Shown here: positions 20,957 to 29,948 of the stretch, in pieces | Position numbering within the stretch: the first letter of the stretch is position 1 | How the letters are laid out: every line of letters begins with the position of its first letter | Made by a program: the position numbers and the translations under genes | Assembly (NCBI GenBank): GCA_022759365.1 | Contig: JAEMPJ010000018.1 | Span: 1-41,185 of the forward strand | DNA from: Thermogladius sp. | GTDB lineage: Archaea > Thermoproteota > Thermoprotei_A > Sulfolobales > Desulfurococcaceae | Direction of reading: 5' to 3' | Length of the DNA: 41,185 nucleotides | Notes under the pieces: model-generated | The model's database searches: none | What the model saw: the letters and a program-made list of their open reading frames with translations, nothing else | What the model was told of the DNA's origin: nothing

Positions 20957-21406
20957 TTGAGGAGGCTCACCCACGCTTTCACAGGCTTCTCAATAGGCTT
21001 CCTGGCGGCAAGACTATGGGGAGGCAACCTAGCCCTCGCCGCCTACCCTCTCCTAGGCTTGCTAGGGGGTATATTCCCGGACTTCGACCTTAAATCCTGT
21101 CACAGGGTTTACCTCCACAACCTGTTCTCAAGCGTGGCGGTCACGAGTGGGCTCTACGGTGTGTTAGTGGGGAGTGGTTTACCGACAGTGGTGAGCGGCG
21201 TTGGCTCGGCGTGTTTTCTAGCAGGGTGGCTCAGCCACATTCTACTCGACTCCCTCACCTTGAGGGGCGTGGCCCTCTTATACCCCTTCGACAAGAGGAT
21301 GAGGGGTTTAAGGCTTATTAGATCAGGCGACTGGAGGGGGGAGGCCCTAGCCTGGCTTATAGGCCTCGGGTTAATCTACCTGGGCTTCATAGTGAGCCGA
21401 CCCTGA
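20957..21406 (+). CDS. YdjM/DUF457-like membrane-bound metal-dependent hydrolase
   Basis: Small integral membrane protein (149 aa) with four hydrophobic segments. It has the PF04307 pattern: an N-terminal His (LTHAFTGF), GGIFPDFDL with Asp residues (about 38-46), HRVYLHN (His-rich, about 49-55), GWLSHILLDSLTLRGVALLYPF (about 95-115). These His/Asp residues form the predicted metal site. The substrate is unknown; bacterial members have been linked to the LexA regulon, but nothing here indicates that. It starts at TTG 20957 (MRRLTHAF), divergent from the ATPase operon. Confidence 0.8.
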   Translation: MRRLTHAFTGFSIGFLAARLWGGNLALAAYPLLGLLGGIFPDFDLKSCHRVYLHNLFSSVAVTSGLYGVLVGSGLPTVVSGVGSACFLAGWLSHILLDSLTLRGVALLYPFDKRMRGLRLIRSGDWRGEALAWLIGLGLIYLGFIVSRP

Positions 21407-21469: not shown

Positions 21470-23194
21470 TCACTCCGTGTACTTCAGCCCTCTTCTCAGA
21501 AGATAGAAGAGGCCGAGATCCACTGCTAACACGGCTACCAGGCCTATAGCCAAATACTCTCTAGCCTGGTTCAGCATGTTCTCGGCCCCATTAATCTTGT
21601 TCTCATAGTCCAAGAGCCTGACCGTTAGGTTGGCGACCGTCGCGTTACAGTTGCCTGCGTTCACGAGGAGCACGTTAATAGTCTCGTTCATGCTTGCTAC
21701 CTGGTGGTTCAAGCTGTCAACAGTCCTGGTCAAGTTGTCTATCATGTCCTGGAGCTGGAAACCTATTGAGACCAGGTTCGAAGCCGAAGGATAGTACAGC
21801 TTGGAGTAGGAGAGCAGGAGGTCTTCGAAGACATCTTCATCTACGACGCCGCTCAACGCCAGCGTCTGGTTGAAGCCGGCGGGCTTAACCAGTAGTGCGA
21901 AGCCCCGGCCAAACCCTAGCTTATCGTAGTCCAGGATCTTCACTAAGACCCGGCCCTCCTCCCTAACAACACTCAGGCTGTAGCCCTGCTGGACTAGCTC
22001 CGCGATATAGGCTTGATCCGAAGAAGCATCATATATCCCTGGCTTAACCACCGGCAACCCCACTCCACTGCCACCGCCTGCTCCAGTGTAGGGGTTGTAT
22101 ATGATCACCGTCGAGTTTACTCCCAGGTAGACCCTGAAGTCATTTATTATGTCGTTTAAGTTGTTTAACGTCAAGTTGATGAGATCCCTGTAAGTCGCCT
22201 CGTCGACGAAACCCCTAATCGAGTCCAGTCTCTGGAACAGCGGGTAGTACATCAAGTAGACTCCCCCGCTTGTAAACCACGTGGCTTTGACGGCTAGTGT
22301 GCTGTAGAATCTACAGGACTGGTTGAAAGCCCATTCCAGCGCCTCAGCCGGCAGGCTCCTCAGAAAGTCCTGGGGGTAGAGCTCGAGTAGGACAACGGGT
22401 TCGGTGAAGGACCCGTAGAATTTGTTCAGCCAGCCGCTCGCCTTGAGAGTCCCGGGGAAGAAGAGTGTTAGGTGAGTAGCGTTTGAACTTATGATCTTGA
22501 ACTTCAAGTAGTAGACTCCCTCAGAGATGTTGAGGCCTGAAGGCACTGAGACCGCGAAGCTGGGTGTCTCAAGAGTTGTGTTGTCGAAGGCTTCTACAAC
22601 ATTGTAGCTGGTTAGATTCACCACTATACCGCTGGGCGTGTTCGAGACCACTAGGCTTGTATTGAGGACATCCCACCAGGAGCTCTCGTTGAACTCCAAG
22701 GTGAAAACCGCTGGCGGGATGTAGTTGCCGGATATATTGAAGTACGGGTTGATGCTCATAGCCGTCGAGTTGGGGTCTACGCCTGGGACACCTATGAACA
22801 CCGTGAAGTTCCCTCCCCACAAGGTGTTCACGTAGGACTGGTTGACGAGGCTTGTTAAGTCGACGAGGCTCCCGTTTACAAACGCGTTTGTCTCGTTAAC
22901 GAACACAACTAGATCGCTTAGGGATGGATCCACGAGCTTCATTAAGTGGGATAAGTAGTCGTAGGGTGGGGTGGGGTTGATGTACTCTACTTCGCTATTC
23001 AATGTAGTCGTGTTCCCCATATTAAGCATAGTCAAATCGGCTCCGGGAGCGTATATGAGTATGAGCTTCATCGGCTGGACGAACCTTTGCGATACAGCAA
23101 TGCTTGGAGCTAGCAGGGCCAAGACAAGCATTGCTACTACCAGGATATCTCGAGGTCTAATCAACGTGACCACCGTTATTCCTAGTTTAAACAA
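21470..23194 (-). CDS. Secreted, membrane-anchored, sequon-rich surface protein
   Basis: I do not recognise the family. It has an N-terminal hydrophobic signal or anchor segment (about 17-36: ILVVAMLVLALLAPSIAV), a large extracellular domain with at least twenty N-x-S/T sequons, a predicted coiled coil (about 470-545, GFQLQDMIDNLTRTVDSLNHQV), and a C-terminal transmembrane helix (AIGLVAVLAVDLGLFYLL) followed by a basic tail RRGLKYTE. This is a type I-like cell-surface glycoprotein architecture, with the coiled coil as stalk, similar in plan to S-layer-associated stalk proteins of Desulfurococcales. The start is uncertain: TTG 23194, GTG 23173 and TTG 23164 all precede the signal segment. No enzymatic motif is visible. 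Confidence 0.7.
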   Translation of the reverse strand: MFKLGITVVTLIRPRDILVVAMLVLALLAPSIAVSQRFVQPMKLILIYAPGADLTMLNMGNTTTLNSEVEYINPTPPYDYLSHLMKLVDPSLSDLVVFVNETNAFVNGSLVDLTSLVNQSYVNTLWGGNFTVFIGVPGVDPNSTAMSINPYFNISGNYIPPAVFTLEFNESSWWDVLNTSLVVSNTPSGIVVNLTSYNVVEAFDNTTLETPSFAVSVPSGLNISEGVYYLKFKIISSNATHLTLFFPGTLKASGWLNKFYGSFTEPVVLLELYPQDFLRSLPAEALEWAFNQSCRFYSTLAVKATWFTSGGVYLMYYPLFQRLDSIRGFVDEATYRDLINLTLNNLNDIINDFRVYLGVNSTVIIYNPYTGAGGGSGVGLPVVKPGIYDASSDQAYIAELVQQGYSLSVVREEGRVLVKILDYDKLGFGRGFALLVKPAGFNQTLALSGVVDEDVFEDLLLSYSKLYYPSASNLVSIGFQLQDMIDNLTRTVDSLNHQVASMNETINVLLVNAGNCNATVANLTVRLLDYENKINGAENMLNQAREYLAIGLVAVLAVDLGLFYLLRRGLKYTE

Positions 23195-23301: not shown

Positions 23302-24174
23302 ATGAAGATCCTCATAGCTGGAATTCTAGCTTTCGAGTCGGGTAAAACCACTCTAGCCCTCGGTTTAGCCCGGGAGTTTAAGAGTAGGGGTTTCTCAGTG
23401 GGGTATTTAAAGCCTGTGGCAGGCCACAACGGGTGGTTTCAGCAGGATACCGTGGAGTACACTAGAGCAACCGGTGTTCTAGTAGGACACGACGCATATG
23501 TTGTCGCGAGTGAACTTGGATTAACCAGGGAGATACCTATCTTAAACCCCCTCGACATACTCACACTCCCATTAGACCCCTTCCTCGAGGATCTCACGCT
23601 GAGGAGATACCTTGATTACATGTCCTCGAGCCTGAGGACGGCTGTCCTGGTAAGGTTTTCCAAGATCGGTGGATCGGGTCTAGTAAACGACTACTTTGTA
23701 GTAGGGGAGAACGTCTCCAGGCTCTCCAGCGTCTCACTCGCACTATACAACACTATTATAAGCGTAATAGGGGAGAACAGCTCTTTCACCGAGATCTCGA
23801 TCAGGGAGCTGGAGGATTTAATGAACAACCCGGAGACGTATAAGGAGATAGATCGAACCACAGGCTTACTCGAGGAACGGGAGGTCATGCTCGTGGAAGG
23901 GTACAATGATGTCTCCGCCCCCACGCCCTCGTCCTGCGAGTCTGACTACGCTATTGCTGTCGCCCCGACGAGAGCGGCCTTGTACGATGGCTCGAAGTAC
24001 TGCAGGGGGATCCAAGTGCTCTCGCCAAACAGGCCGTGGCTCGCGAGGACGGTCAGCGTGCTGGAACTTATCGGCAAGCCGTTGAGAAAGTTCAACATAC
24101 CGCCTGAAGCCAGTGGTGCTGAGTTTAAAAGAAGCGTCAGCGATATAGTTGACACAATAATTGGAAAAGCGTGA
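23302..24174 (+). CDS. P-loop ATPase, dethiobiotin-synthetase-like fold
   Basis: The 290-aa cytoplasmic NTPase begins MKILIAGILAFESGKTTLALGLA: the Walker A loop is AFESGKTT (residues 10-17), with SGKTT as in BioD/CobB-type P-loop proteins. VGYLKPVAGHNGWFQQDTVEYTRATG is also like BioD (KP(V/I) after the second strand), and VMLVEGYNDVSAP resembles the Walker B region (VEG). The substrate is unknown, and no biotin or cobalamin gene is nearby. It is the first gene of a tight five-gene run with the eIF2B/R15P-isomerase paralogues, so a role in nucleotide or pentose-phosphate metabolism is a reasonable guess. Confidence 0.65.
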   Translation: MKILIAGILAFESGKTTLALGLAREFKSRGFSVGYLKPVAGHNGWFQQDTVEYTRATGVLVGHDAYVVASELGLTREIPILNPLDILTLPLDPFLEDLTLRRYLDYMSSSLRTAVLVRFSKIGGSGLVNDYFVVGENVSRLSSVSLALYNTIISVIGENSSFTEISIRELEDLMNNPETYKEIDRTTGLLEEREVMLVEGYNDVSAPTPSSCESDYAIAVAPTRAALYDGSKYCRGIQVLSPNRPWLARTVSVLELIGKPLRKFNIPPEASGAEFKRSVSDIVDTIIGKA

Positions 24175-24180
24175 AAGCTG

Positions 24181-25119
24181 ATGAGCGTGCTCCGTAGAGA
24201 GGGTTTTGCGGAGAGGCCTACTGGGAGCGAGCTGATAATGAACCTCTTAGACGCCGCTCAGGAAGCGGCGGCCGGGGGAGACTGCTTAAAGCTCGTCAAG
24301 TTCCTTAGAGACAGGTATATACAGTTCAGCAGGGAGAGGCCTGGGTCTGCTGGTTTGTTCAATGTTATTAGGCAGATATTAACCTACGTTAGAGACCACG
24401 GGTGCACTGGTGTAAGGGACTTCATCGCTGGTTTGAAGGAGGGATATGACAAGGCTCTGTGGAGCGCAAGCGAGGTTATGGCCAAGAGGATTGTCGACGG
24501 GGAGGTTTTGATGACGAACAGCAACAGCCTGGCTGTTAGGAGGCTCTTCGAAATCCTTGTGAGGAACAAGGTTAAGTTCAGCGTGTACGTCCTCGAGTCT
24601 AGGCCGGGTCTCGAAGGCCTGATCCTAGCCGACTACCTCGACAAGCTTGGTGTCGAAACCTACCTTATAGTCGACTCGGCCGCAAGGTTCTTCATGAAAA
24701 ACGTTGACAAGGTCGTCGCGGGCGCCGAGGCGGTCGCCGCGAACGGGGCTATCGTGAGCAAGGTTGGGACAAGCCTGATGGCCCTTGTCGCAAGCGAGGC
24801 CAGGGTGAGGTTCTTCACCATAGCCCCTACGCTGAAGATCAGCCTTGAGACCGTCTACGGCGAGCTGATCAAACTCCCCGAGGGGGACTGGAGGCTCCTC
24901 ATGGATGAGGAGACGAGGAAGAGTCTGCCGGAGAAGTATGTCGCTAAGGCACCCCTATACGACGTGACACCACCCAACATGATAGACGGTGTAGCGACAG
25001 AGCTTGGGTTGTACCCGCCGCAGTCGATCCCCATCCTCGTTAAGACTATCTACGGGTCTTACCCGCCCCAGTTGACCCCGCTTGAGAAGTTGTTCTCCGA
25101 GCTCCTGGGGGGTGGTTGA
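24181..25119 (+). CDS. eIF2B-alpha/R15P-isomerase family paralogue, catalytic residues changed
   Basis: The 312-aa member of the eIF2B alpha/beta/delta-MTNA-R15P isomerase family has a helical N-terminal domain (1-100) and Rossmann-like C-terminal domain. The pocket motifs are degenerate: where the isomerase has the catalytic Cys in THC(H/N)S, this protein has TNSNS (Ser114), and the catalytic Asp of GADT is Glu183 in GAEAVAANG. KVGTSLMALVASEARVRFFT and PLYDVTPPNMIDGVATELGLYPP are conserved structural parts. It is probably a non-catalytic, possibly regulatory, paralogue of the next gene, with which it overlaps or abuts. Alternatively it could have a different sugar-phosphate substrate. Confidence 0.8.
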   Translation: MSVLRREGFAERPTGSELIMNLLDAAQEAAAGGDCLKLVKFLRDRYIQFSRERPGSAGLFNVIRQILTYVRDHGCTGVRDFIAGLKEGYDKALWSASEVMAKRIVDGEVLMTNSNSLAVRRLFEILVRNKVKFSVYVLESRPGLEGLILADYLDKLGVETYLIVDSAARFFMKNVDKVVAGAEAVAANGAIVSKVGTSLMALVASEARVRFFTIAPTLKISLETVYGELIKLPEGDWRLLMDEETRKSLPEKYVAKAPLYDVTPPNMIDGVATELGLYPPQSIPILVKTIYGSYPPQLTPLEKLFSELLGGG

Positions 25120-25120
25120 A

Positions 25121-26116
25121 GTGGAGGGCATACCACGGGAGGTACTGGAGATAGCTGATGGAATAAGGAGTATGAGGATAAGGGGTGCTGGGAAGATAGC
25201 CAGGTCGGCTGCCGAGGCGTTGAAGATAGCGGCCGAGAAGTACGAGGGTGCTAGGGAGCCGGGGGCTTTCAGGAAGTACATGGCTAGAGTAGCCGACCTG
25301 CTGATAGAGACGAGGCCGACTGCCGTGAGCCTCCCCAACGCTGTGATGTACGTTATGCAAGCCGTGTTCACGCCGGCAAGCGATTTCGAAAGCCTGCGAA
25401 ATAGTGTTGTGTCGGCTGCCGCGAGGTTTATCGAGGAGAGCAATAACGCTGTCAAGAGGATAGCCGAGTTCGGGAGTAGGAGGATCAAAGAGAACTCTGT
25501 CATACTAACCCACTGCCACAGCACGGCAGCTGTATCCGTGATAACCGAGGCCTACAAGCAGGGGAAGGTTGTGAAGGTCTACAGCACTGAGACAAGGCCC
25601 TTCTACCAGGGCAGGATAACGACTAGGCAACTCCTCGAAAACGGCGTCCCGGTTGTCCAGATACCGGACAGCGCTGTCAGGTACTTCATGCATGAAGTAG
25701 ACCAGGTTGTGATAGGGGCGGACACGATCACCAGCAACGGGGCTGTTGTAAACAAGATCGGGACGAGCCAGGTCGCCTTAGCAGCACACGAGGCGAGGGT
25801 AAGAGTCTTCGTGGCAGCCGAGACCTACAAGTTCTCGCCTATGACGGTGATAGGCGAGCTCGTCCCCATCGAGTTCAGGGATCCAAGCGAGGTAGTGCCT
25901 CCTGAATGGCTCCAGGCCCACAGGAATGTCAGGGTGTTAAACCCCTCGTTCGACGTCACCCCGCCCGAGTACATTGACGCGATTATAACAGAGGTTGGCG
26001 TGATACCGCCCCAGGCGGCGATAATGATCCTGACCGAGAGGCTTGGGTGGGCGATAGATAAGATTAAACAGGCTGGTTTAACAAAGCTTAGATTTGAGGA
26101 CTTGGTGGAGGAGTAG
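25121..26116 (+). CDS. Ribose-1,5-bisphosphate isomerase (eIF2B-like)
   Basis: Converts ribose-1,5-bisphosphate to ribulose-1,5-bisphosphate in the archaeal AMP/NMP salvage route. I chose GTG 25121 (331 aa) because GGGGGGTGG lies 7 nt before it. This puts the catalytic Cys at residue 132 (LTHCHS) and Asp at 201 (IGADTITSNG), almost the same numbers as Cys133 and Asp202 of the characterised Thermococcus kodakarensis enzyme. MRIRGAGKIARSAAEAL is the R/K-rich phosphate loop. The C-terminus has FDVTPPEYIDAIITEVGVIPP. No AMP phosphorylase or RuBisCO lies in the window, so the pathway cannot be confirmed here. The upstream gene is a degenerate paralogue. Confidence 0.85.
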   Translation: MEGIPREVLEIADGIRSMRIRGAGKIARSAAEALKIAAEKYEGAREPGAFRKYMARVADLLIETRPTAVSLPNAVMYVMQAVFTPASDFESLRNSVVSAAARFIEESNNAVKRIAEFGSRRIKENSVILTHCHSTAAVSVITEAYKQGKVVKVYSTETRPFYQGRITTRQLLENGVPVVQIPDSAVRYFMHEVDQVVIGADTITSNGAVVNKIGTSQVALAAHEARVRVFVAAETYKFSPMTVIGELVPIEFRDPSEVVPPEWLQAHRNVRVLNPSFDVTPPEYIDAIITEVGVIPPQAAIMILTERLGWAIDKIKQAGLTKLRFEDLVEE

Positions 26117-26117
26117 G

Positions 26118-26444
26118 TTGGGCGAGGACGTCTCCGCGCTGAAGAGCGAGATCGCGAGGCTGATCGACGAGAGCAGGGATGTTGAGGTTAAGATAGCCTT
26201 CTACAGCGATGAGAGAGTCCAGGCGGTCATGGACCGGCTCAACAAGGAGTGGGAGAGGAACGGGTACAAGGGGATCCCCCTAGACTACGCTACAGTGGAT
26301 GAGATAAAGATGTTGAACGCGCTGGCCAAATACTACTCCACTCACCCCTCCAACGCCTACAGGAACTTTGTGAGGAACGCTTACGGAATACCCTCCCCTA
26401 AGATCGAGAGGAAGAGCTGGTGGAGGAGGCTACTGGGACTATAG
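26118..26444 (+). CDS. Small conserved protein of unknown function
   Basis: The 108-aa protein starts at TTG 26118 just after the R15P-isomerase stop, with GGTGGAGGAG just upstream. It is helical and charged, with DVEVKIAFYSDERVQAVMDRLNKEWERNGYKGIPLDYATVDEIKMLNALAKYY and a basic end KSWWRRLLGL. I know of no function. Its position between the isomerase and a DUF59 gene, with 1- and 9-nt spacings, indicates co-transcription. Confidence 0.7.
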   Translation: MGEDVSALKSEIARLIDESRDVEVKIAFYSDERVQAVMDRLNKEWERNGYKGIPLDYATVDEIKMLNALAKYYSTHPSNAYRNFVRNAYGIPSPKIERKSWWRRLLGL

Positions 26445-26453
26445 GTGGCGTCT

Positions 26454-26831
26454 ATGTCTAGCACCAGTAGCGGAGATGATCTGAAGAAGAAGGTCATAGA
26501 GGTGCTCGAGACCATAGCTGACCCGGAGATCGGTATAGACGTCTACAACCTCGGCTTAGTCTACGGGATAGAAGTAGCCGGCGGCAAAGTTAAGATCAAG
26601 ATGACCCTTACAACACCGTTCTGCCCATTGGCGAATATCCTCCCCATGATGGTTGACGAGGAGTTGAAGAAGAAGCTGGGCGTCGAGGTGGAGATAGAGC
26701 TCGTGTATGACCCGCCGTGGAACCCCTTGATGATGACTGAGAAGGGCAGGAGGATGTTTATAGAGAGGTACGGCTACGATATTGTGGAGGAATACAAGAA
26801 GCAGATGGAGTCGGAGAAATTCGAGTACTAG
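26454..26831 (+). CDS. DUF59/MIP18-PaaD-like Fe-S assembly protein
   Basis: The 125-aa MIP18-family protein (SufT/PaaD-like) is linked to Fe-S cluster assembly on target proteins. IADPEIGIDVYNLGLVYGIEV is the family signature, followed by KIKMTLTTPFCPLANILPMMVDEEL with the conserved Cys, and VYDPPWNPLMMTEKGRRM. ATG 26454 is preceded by AGGTGG; a GTG 3 codons earlier (26445) also opens the frame. It is the last gene of the 23302-26831 operon. Confidence 0.85.
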   Translation: MSSTSSGDDLKKKVIEVLETIADPEIGIDVYNLGLVYGIEVAGGKVKIKMTLTTPFCPLANILPMMVDEELKKKLGVEVEIELVYDPPWNPLMMTEKGRRMFIERYGYDIVEEYKKQMESEKFEY

Positions 26832-26887: not shown

Positions 26888-28279
26888 TTGTGGGAAGTGA
26901 GCTGGAGTATACTCAAGCTTCTCCGTGAAAACCCCGACGAGCTGAAGAAGCATGTGAAGAAGAGGTTTATGGATGAGGGGATCGTGGATGAAGCCTTGAA
27001 GCTAGACCTCGAGTGGAGGAAGCTGCTCTCCGAGATACAGGAGCTGAGGCATAAACACAACGTTATAAGCAGGGAGATATCTAGGCTCCAGGGAGCGGAA
27101 AGAGAGGAGAAGATTAAGGAGGCGAAGGAGCTCCTATCCCTGTTGGAGGAGTATGAGAAGAAGCTCAACGAGCTCGAGGCCAAGAGGGAGGAGGCCCTAC
27201 TCAAGCTACCCAACATAGTCCACGACTCAGTCCCCGTGGGCCCCGACGACTCGTATAACCTGCCCATCAGATTCTACGGTAGGCCGAGGGTCTGGACGGG
27301 TTACCTCGATCAGTTTAGGCAACAGACCGAGAGGTACGGCTTTAAAGTAGAGTACGAGCTCATCGACTGGAAGCCTGTGGGACACGCGGATATGCTCGAG
27401 CTTGTCCTCGGGATGGGTAATACTGTGAAGGCTGGTGAGGTCGCTGGGAGCAGGTTCTACTACTTGTTCAACGACATAGTCTTCCTCGACATGGCTCTAC
27501 TAGCCTACGCCATAGATCACCTGACCTCCAAAGGCTACACGCTGGTGCTACCACCCTACATGCTGAGGTTCAAGTACATACAAGGCGTAATAGACTACGC
27601 TACTTTCAAGGACGCCATCTACAAGATCGAGGGGGAGGACTTGTACCTGATAGCGACAGCCGAGCACAGCCTCGCCGCCCTCCACGCGGACGAGGAGATA
27701 CCTGAGGAGATGTTGCCCCTGAAGTACGTGGGGGTTAGCCCCTGCTTCAGGAAGGAGGCTGGTGCCGGGAACAGGGATTTAAAGGGGATCTTCCGAGTCC
27801 ACCAGTTCCATAAAGTAGAGCAGTTCATATTCGCGAAGCCTGAGGAGAGCTGGGATCTAATGGAGGAGCTCATATCAAACGCCGAGGAATTGTTCAAGGG
27901 GTTGAACCTCCCCTACAGGGTCGTCAACATCGCGAGCGGTGATCTAGGGGCCCCTGCGGCCAAGAAGTACGACCTCGAGACCTGGATGCCCGCCCAGGGC
28001 CTCTACAGGGAGATGGTTAGCTGTAGCAACGTGACTGACTGGCAGGCCTACAGGCTTAAGATAAGGCTTATCAGGAGAAAGGGGATGATTAGAGAGCTTG
28101 TCCACACGCTCAACTCAACGGCCATCGCGAGCACTAGGACTATTACTAGCATACTCGAGAACTACCAGGAGCCCGACGGCGTTGTTGTGATCCCGAAGGC
28201 TCTGAGGAAATACCTTGAGCCGTTCAACAAAGCCCCCAAGGACGCTATACACCCCGTTAAGAGAGAGAAGTCGAGTTAA
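26888..28279 (+). CDS. serS: Serine--tRNA ligase
   Basis: Class II aminoacyl-tRNA synthetase charging tRNA-Ser. The N-terminal long antiparallel coiled coil (residues about 10-100) binds the tRNA variable arm: [35 protein letters not shown] and [16 protein letters not shown]. Motif 1 is around [14 protein letters not shown]. Motif 2 is [30 protein letters not shown]. Motif 3 is [33 protein letters not shown]. It is the standard bacterial/archaeal type, 463 aa, not the rare methanogen type. The start could be TTG 26888 or GTG 26897. Confidence 0.97.
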
Positions 28280-29096: not shown

Positions 29097-29948
29097 TTAA
29101 TAGAAATCTGAGAAGGGTGAAGCCCCGCGATGAAGCAACTTATCCTCCCCACGGTTAAGCCACCGGTCTGTCTCCTCTAAAGCTGATTCAACAGCCTCCC
29201 TTGGCTTCATGCCCTCCATGATCCTTAGGAAGAGTTTTCCCAGGAAGTAGTCCCCAGCCCCTGTTTTATCGTCAACTCTCCTCCTCTCAGAGCCGACTTC
29301 GCTCACTGAACCACCTGTAACTAGTATAGGAGGTTTAACTCCTTCTGTGACGACAACAAGGGACTCCTTCACCAACCCGCTCAGCCTCTTCAACGCGTCG
29401 TGCTTGCTCTCAGCCCCTGTTAGAGCGATAGCCTCCTCTACATCCATGTGAAGTATGTCGAATAAGCCGATCACATCGATTAGTAGACCTCCCACCTTAT
29501 ACCTCAGGGTGCCCCGCCTCCTCTCCCTTACAAACCCCTGGATGTCGCCCGCTAGGAGAGCCGACTTAACCCTCAGCTCCTTCAACAAGCTGAAAGACAC
29601 CTCGCCTAGGACGGGGTTGACTATTGTGTAGCACACCCCTGTATGGGTGTCACCGCTCGTGAGCTCCGGCGAGAGCTCTAGAACCTCCATTACACGGCTT
29701 GAGTTGAGGTAAGTTATCTTGAAAACCATTGGGGAGGCTGAGTAGGCTGAGTTGGCCTTGAAAGACCACAGCTTGTTCGCCATGAACAGCCAGTGGGGGC
29801 CGACCGAGTAGACCTCTGGTTGAACCCCTTCGTCTAGTAAAGCCATAGTCGAGTAGTAGACTCCCCCACCATACTTTTGAGCTATCCCTGCCTTCGAGTA
29901 AATGTAGTCGACAGTGGGGTTCCCGTAAACGCAGACCCTCCTCAACAT
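29097..29948 (-). CDS. PfkB-family carbohydrate/nucleoside kinase
   Basis: Ribokinase-fold kinase of 283 aa. It starts CVYGNPTVDYIY (first strand, substrate side), with GGGVYYSTMAL as the early glycine motif. The C-terminal ATP site and catalytic base are in DDKTGAGDYFLGKLF (GAGD at 230-233). HMDVEEAIALTG and VVVTEGVKPPILV are typical. The substrate cannot be inferred; members in hyperthermophiles phosphorylate sugars, nucleosides or ADP-dependent substrates. It starts with ATG, 11 nt downstream of the zinc-finger gene, in the same operon. Confidence 0.85.
   Translation of the reverse strand: MLRRVCVYGNPTVDYIYSKAGIAQKYGGGVYYSTMALLDEGVQPEVYSVGPHWLFMANKLWSFKANSAYSASPMVFKITYLNSSRVMEVLELSPELTSGDTHTGVCYTIVNPVLGEVSFSLLKELRVKSALLAGDIQGFVRERRRGTLRYKVGGLLIDVIGLFDILHMDVEEAIALTGAESKHDALKRLSGLVKESLVVVTEGVKPPILVTGGSVSEVGSERRRVDDKTGAGDYFLGKLFLRIMEGMKPREAVESALEETDRWLNRGEDKLLHRGASPFSDFY

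Follow-up and report, generated by a model that had tools for sequence, protein, structure and literature searches.

A tandem pair of ribose-1,5-bisphosphate isomerase paralogues in Thermogladius is a candidate split, AMP-regulated enzyme

In a 41,185-nucleotide (nt) stretch of DNA from the hyperthermophilic archaeon Thermogladius sp. (Desulfurococcaceae; assembly GCA_022759365.1, contig JAEMPJ010000018.1, positions 1 to 41,185; hereafter the window), five plus-strand genes that we call A to E occupy positions 23302–26831, separated by intergenic gaps of 6, 1, 1 and 0 nt and followed by a seryl-tRNA synthetase (SerRS) gene. Two of them, B and C, encode paralogues of ribose-1,5-bisphosphate isomerase (R15Pi). 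This enzyme is generally regarded as a homohexamer whose chains all catalyze the reaction and help to bind the activator, adenosine monophosphate (AMP). In the pair described here the two features are complementary, with B retaining the AMP site and C the active site, and a mixed B–C hexamer is the best explanation for this arrangement. We consider it probable, judging from the residues that each chain retains, that B and C are the two subunits of a heteromeric, AMP-regulated R15Pi in which C catalyzes and B carries the AMP site. A search of the open-access literature, with subscription papers outside its scope, found no heteromeric or paired R15Pi.

Gene C encodes a bona fide R15Pi that its residues predict to be catalytic. 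The protein scores 406.7 bits against the NCBIfam equivalog model TIGR00511, above the cut-off of 314.1, and matches solved R15Pi structures (PDB 3a11 and 5yfj) with an E value of about 1e-105. Its Cys132 and Asp201 align with Cys133 and Asp202 of the Thermococcus kodakarensis enzyme, and every residue that engages the substrate, ribose 1,5-bisphosphate (R15P), is kept: the Cys and Asp, the RGAG loop and Gln at the 1-phosphate, and the Asn and Lys at the sugar. The reading frame is open and constrained, with a ratio of nonsynonymous to synonymous substitution (dN/dS) of about 0.10 against a congener. The pentose bisphosphate (AMP degradation) pathway is complete in this genome, since AMP phosphorylase (610 bits; cut-off 535) and a type III RuBisCO (675 bits; cut-off 497), both looked for beyond the window and found on other contigs, complete the route from AMP to 3-phosphoglycerate. 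In several loci outside Desulfurococcaceae, the B–C pair adjoins genes for a PfkB protein resembling ribose-1-phosphate kinase, for phosphoribosyl pyrophosphate (PRPP) synthetase or for uridine phosphorylase. These neighbors point to a metabolic role for B and C, as in halophiles, whose R15Pi genes share operons with those for a PfkB-type ribose-1-phosphate kinase and uridine phosphorylase (PMC9700705). Three genomes of another family, f3 (G038, G048 and G058), contain a type III RuBisCO and lack B, C and AMP phosphorylase.

Gene B encodes a protein of the same family (PF01008, E = 2e-48) that fails the R15Pi equivalog test, reaching 189.6 bits against the cut-off of 314.1. Its Ser114 and Glu183 stand at the positions of T. 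kodakarensis Cys133 and Asp202. The RGAG loop is lost, and the glutamine that binds the 1-phosphate (Q164 in T. kodakarensis numbering, used from here on for residue frequencies and pocket residues) is replaced, mostly by Glu. The catalytic Cys occurs in none of 63 B sequences and the Asp in 14%; some carry Ala, Thr or Gly in place of the Ser. The phosphate- and sugar-binding residues R63, S135, K213 and K238 are present in 97–100% of them. In addition, B of the window keeps the AMP-site residues R103, R169, K173, N188, R208, R210 and D269, which provide equivalents of R122, D288, R227, N207, R188 and K192 of the T. kodakarensis enzyme, with W229 replaced by Arg. The AlphaFold model of B (predicted local distance difference test score, pLDDT, 91.7) adopts the R15Pi fold, and its best Foldseek match is 5yfs, the C135S mutant of R15Pi, with a template modeling (TM) score of 0.83.

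In a tree of 130 proteins, a set that did not include eIF2B sequences, the 63 B rows form one clade (Shimodaira–Hasegawa-like approximate likelihood ratio test, SH-aLRT, 98) that is nested among R15Pi proteins and lies apart from MtnA and aIF2B-alpha-like proteins. The clade spans Desulfurococcaceae, several further families of the same order, Thermofilales and further Thermoprotei. Its deepest members come from a Geoarchaeota metagenome-assembled genome and from archaeon RBG_16_50_20, where a PRPP synthetase gene lies between B and C. The dN/dS of B against a congener is 0.074, a sign of strong purifying selection. We conclude that B is an ancient, single-origin family across Thermoproteia, non-catalytic as judged by its residues. 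The initial annotation had read the four Cys/Asp and Ser/Glu residues correctly and had recognized both paralogues as intact genes in tandem (open frames; dN/dS about 0.07 and 0.10), and the Ser/Glu pair that it singled out is highly conserved among B sequences of relatives, although with the substitutions given above. Its description of B as degenerate is mistaken: the gene belongs to a conserved non-catalytic clade, evolves under purifying selection and is almost always found with C.

Three other identities for B were rejected. A pseudogene or simple duplication is ruled out by the dN/dS of 0.074, the single deep origin and the near-invariant motifs; MtnA by scores of 88.9 bits against 279 (TIGR00512) and 106.5 against 271 (NF004326), by the Ser/Glu pair and by the tree; and aIF2B-alpha (PRK08335) by 90.3 bits against the NF006210 cut-off of 339 and, again, by the tree. 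One locus (L146:3910-6804) contains a deep-branching B, PRPP synthetase and C in a single run. The B encoded there has kept an Arg at the position of the 1-phosphate, which may mark it as a transitional form. By analogy with the pocket of eIF2B-alpha, what remains of the B pocket (R63, S135, E202, K213 and K238) probably holds a sugar 5-phosphate or a nucleotide.

The two genes travel together. Among 61 related genomes, 45 contain both, 14 contain neither, and only two contain one alone; both of these are incomplete (G014, in which a contig end truncates B, and G059, which is 87% complete in 330 contigs). B and C are adjacent in 43 of the 45 genomes that have both, and in family f4 they lie on separate contigs. 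In nearly all relatives with both genes, B and C share a strand with B upstream, usually no more than about 25 nt away, and the recurrence of this order means that the tandem is not a product of chance.

The AMP site provides the closest view of how the two chains differ. In the hexameric R15Pi of Pyrococcus horikoshii, AMP is lodged between three protomers, the first contributing R124, D290, R229 and W231, the next N209 and V251, and the last R190 and K194; a C135S change leaves this enzyme inactive yet still able to bind R15P (PMC5789824). We compared residue frequencies across the 63 B, 45 paired C and 13 solo R15Pi sequences, given below in that order. The catalytic residues separate B from the other two groups (C133 0, 1 and 1; D202 0.14, 1 and 1; Q164 0, 1 and 1), and the active site is invariant among the paired C. 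At the AMP site it is the paired C that depart, most clearly at R122 (0.98, 0.62 and 0.92) and R227 (1.00, 0.71 and 0.92), and less so at D288 (1.00, 0.91 and 1.00), N207 (0.97, 0.93 and 1.00) and R188 (0.97, 0.89 and 1.00). All AMP-site residues are present in 97–100% of B sequences save K192 (86%). Of 286 positions in B, 37 are conserved in at least 95% of sequences, and these include all but one of the seven AMP-site side chains (hypergeometric p = 2e-5, with positions treated as independent).

We scored the AMP-site core as lost when at least one of R122, D288, R227, N207 and R188 was gone. By this measure, the core is lost in 21 of the 45 C that have a B partner, corresponding to 8–9 changes on the C tree, as against 2 of 34 solo R15Pi (2/14 and 0/20 in two sets) and 3 of 63 B. 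Counted per locus, C alone has lost it 18 times and B alone once. In family f4 the losses are reciprocal, in that C is without R122, R227 and R229 and B is without K192 only, which C retains. Both this reciprocity and the contrast between C and B are expected if a single hexamer holds both chains with its AMP pockets mainly on B.

In the mechanism we propose, C would convert R15P to ribulose 1,5-bisphosphate (RuBP), and B, a pseudoenzyme, would co-assemble with it in the hexamer expected of the fold, at a stoichiometry of perhaps 3:3. AMP bound at interface sites built on B would activate the assembly, so that the AMP level would control the isomerase through B, which may also sense a sugar 5-phosphate in its remaining pocket. 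The physical association of B with C, the binding of AMP by B and the allosteric activation of C are steps that we infer from the sequences.

Several observations weigh against this proposal. Members of a lineage are not independent, and the counts and p-values above therefore overstate significance; a fairer measure is the 8–9 changes on the C tree. The window's own C keeps R122, R227 and R229 and has lost only K192 (to His), so that with a nearly intact site it could bind AMP alone, and the case for its dependence on B comes from relatives. Loss of R227 in C showed no correlation with loss of B E285, its partner at the predicted interface. B might also form an AMP-binding hexamer of its own. 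Finally, two family f5 genomes (G050 and G060; loci L043 and L044) have B and C without full matches to AMP phosphorylase or RuBisCO, and their RuBP must go elsewhere, perhaps as in the non-carboxylating pathway of halophiles. Charge swaps at the K153/E273 salt bridge gave a mixed, uninformative pattern.

If B did assemble without C, it could act as a homo-oligomer of its own, with AMP or a sugar phosphate as ligand, and regulate another process, such as translation initiation in the manner of an aIF2B-like factor; its co-transcription with C would then reflect only a shared nucleotide response. B lacks the catalytic Cys and, like eIF2B-alpha, has Glu in place of the Asp; in eIF2B-alpha, E198, A129 and K234 bind fructose 6-phosphate, and AMP-type ligands act at the same place (PMC8187479). 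The B profile ranks eIF2B delta, alpha and beta (163, 148 and 136 bits) above MtnA (124), and the C profile reverses this, with MtnA at 219 bits over the eIF2B subunits at 172, 149 and 119. B is thus nearer to eIF2B than C is by profile rank, but shared loss of the catalytic residues could be the cause. In addition, an R15Pi homologue of Haloferax is a hub in a translation-factor pull-down network, although the same study spoke against a heteromeric aIF2B (PMC8576121). We nevertheless regard this alternative as unlikely. The neighbors of B belong to ribose and nucleoside metabolism and not to translation, save for SerRS in one family, and B co-occurs with C, which on losing its AMP site would be unregulated unless B compensates.

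B could instead be a second isomerase that uses its Ser/Glu pair on another substrate, with B and C acting as sequential or parallel enzymes. The pair and the surrounding pocket (R63, S135, E158, R160, K213 and K238) are highly conserved in B, and the predominant Glu at Q164 is compatible with a ligand that has no 1-phosphate. The chance of this seems slim to us, because P. horikoshii R15Pi loses its activity through the same Cys-to-Ser change (PMC5789824), some B sequences have no Ser here, and the AMP site is the better-conserved part of the protein. We place as little weight on a heteromer in which B binds no regulatory ligand and only scaffolds C or stabilizes it at high temperature. In its favor, the arginines of the AMP site could be kept for assembly, since this site is located at a subunit interface, and R229 of the P. 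horikoshii enzyme also bonds with E287 and Y288 of a neighboring chain. However, the conserved residues touch the ribose (R124 and D290) and phosphate (R190) of AMP and not protein alone, and the R15Pi of hyperthermophilic Thermococcales is a working homohexamer without B.

That all five genes encode one machine, with the ATPase, the small protein and the DUF59 protein as isomerase subunits or maturation factors, is very improbable even though the A-B-C-D-E order is kept in most Desulfurococcaceae genera, as A and D are encoded elsewhere in other families and in genomes that have no B or C, three Desulfurococcaceae genera have B-C-D-E with A distant, and D adjoins SerRS and E where the B–C pair is absent. 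The initial annotation had proposed a heteromeric and possibly regulated complex of this kind in place of a simple duplication. For B and C the proposal holds up, through their co-occurrence, deep tandem linkage and complementary AMP and active sites; for the other three products it does not, since they join the pair only in Desulfurococcaceae. Gene order in relatives divides along the same line, with B–C adjacency conserved and A and D lying apart in other families. The operon unites the isomerase pair with at least one older, unrelated unit, as the occurrence of A and D away from B and C indicates.

Gene A has counterparts in 54 of the 61 related genomes of the order (L163–L168 among the loci) and scores 27.9 bits against PF13500, barely above the cut-off of 27. 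Its motifs GLLPYDSGKT and KPVAGHNGWYQ are conserved, with GKT, KP, H-x2-W-x-Q and GxDxY invariant. The AlphaFold model (pLDDT 92.5) gave only weak Foldseek matches (E > 0.01), to dethiobiotin synthetases and ParA-type proteins, and no close relative in the PDB was found. A is separated from B–C in other families as well as in the three Desulfurococcaceae genera mentioned above, and is probably not an obligate partner of the isomerase. D occurs in 51 of the 61 relatives with the same distribution as A, and its gene lies beside SerRS or DUF59 genes where B–C is absent; profile searches placed it in no family above cut-off. Its start is most likely the TTG at 26118, replacing position 26094 of the open reading frame list. 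In genomes without R15Pi (L169 and L171), D adjoins SerRS and in one case DUF59, and an invariant K-x2-FY...W...P...A pattern runs through its sequences. E adjoins D in one genome that has neither B nor C (L171). In the window, the SerRS gene (26888–28279) lies downstream of D and E, and shortly beyond it is a PfkB-family kinase gene (29097–29948, minus strand); kinases of this family adjoin B–C in other families too. A 149-residue protein (20957–21406) and a divergent 574-residue protein (21470–23194) flank the operon, a position kept in most Desulfurococcaceae genera.

Table 1. Positions of the five genes and of the residues aligned with the R15Pi catalytic pair
Feature	Position	Strand	Basis
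A, BioD/MobB-like P-loop protein (AAA_26), 290 aa	23302..24174	+	PF13500; first gene of operon
B, non-catalytic R15Pi paralogue, proposed AMP-binding regulatory subunit	24181..25119	+	PF01008 and residue pattern
B, Ser114 codon (AGC), catalytic Cys position	24520..24522	+	Alignment
B, Glu183 codon (GAG), catalytic Asp position	24727..24729	+	Alignment
C, R15Pi, predicted catalytic subunit, GTG start at 25121 adopted	25121..26116	+	TIGR00511
C, Cys132 codon (TGC), predicted catalytic	25514..25516	+	Alignment
C, Asp201 codon (GAC), predicted catalytic	25721..25723	+	Alignment
D, small protein, 108 aa, TTG start	26118..26444	+	No family above cut-off
E, DUF59/MIP18-family (SufT-like) protein, 128 aa	26445..26831	+	PF01883, E = 5e-19

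If the two-subunit reading of B and C is correct, the pentose bisphosphate pathway operates through a split enzyme in a large archaeal group, with one chain devoted to chemistry and the other to sensing AMP. Because B is easily taken for a translation factor or an additional isomerase, the number of R15Pi genes counted in these genomes may be wrong. The known R15Pi enzymes (TIGR00511) are built as homohexamers from a single type of chain that has both the catalytic function and the AMP site, whereas here these features are divided between paralogues. C is a member of that family; B has its fold and its AMP-site residues together with some of the substrate pocket, but lacks the Cys, the Asp and the residues for the 1-phosphate. 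The pair shows the obligate co-occurrence and tandem genes expected of an enzyme–pseudoenzyme heteromer. Such a case is S-adenosylmethionine decarboxylase (AdoMetDC) and its prozyme, in which a dead paralogue activates its active partner as proposed for B and C (PMC5201418), although B and C are of another fold and pathway and their activation is a proposal.

Archaeal aIF2B-alpha (PH0440, PRK08335) has the PF01008 fold in common with B, but B scores far below its cut-off, and the tree places it apart from aIF2B-alpha-like proteins. The possession of this fold without catalytic residues is itself a mark of eIF2B/aIF2B regulatory subunits. The regulatory subcomplex of eIF2B (alpha, beta and delta) resembles the proposed B–C assembly in placing non-catalytic R15Pi relatives in a heteromer, and eIF2B-alpha, which binds sugar phosphates and AMP, has like B exchanged the Asp for Glu and lost the Cys. 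Unlike eIF2B subunits, B adjoins a predicted active isomerase in a metabolic setting and falls inside the R15Pi tree, from which eIF2B sequences were absent. To our knowledge, archaea have no eIF2B gamma or epsilon partners. It is conceivable, though we think it a long shot, that B is an archaeal forerunner of the non-catalytic eIF2B subunits, with heteromerization and loss of catalysis, and with the sensing of nucleotides or sugar phosphates kept, arising in the archaeal (TACK) lineage before eukaryotes; the B–C pair would then be a surviving intermediate on the way from an AMP-activated isomerase to the stress sensor eIF2B. Should B and C prove to be subunits of one enzyme, the pair would be a natural model of the route by which an R15Pi-fold enzyme turned into the multi-subunit sensor eIF2B.

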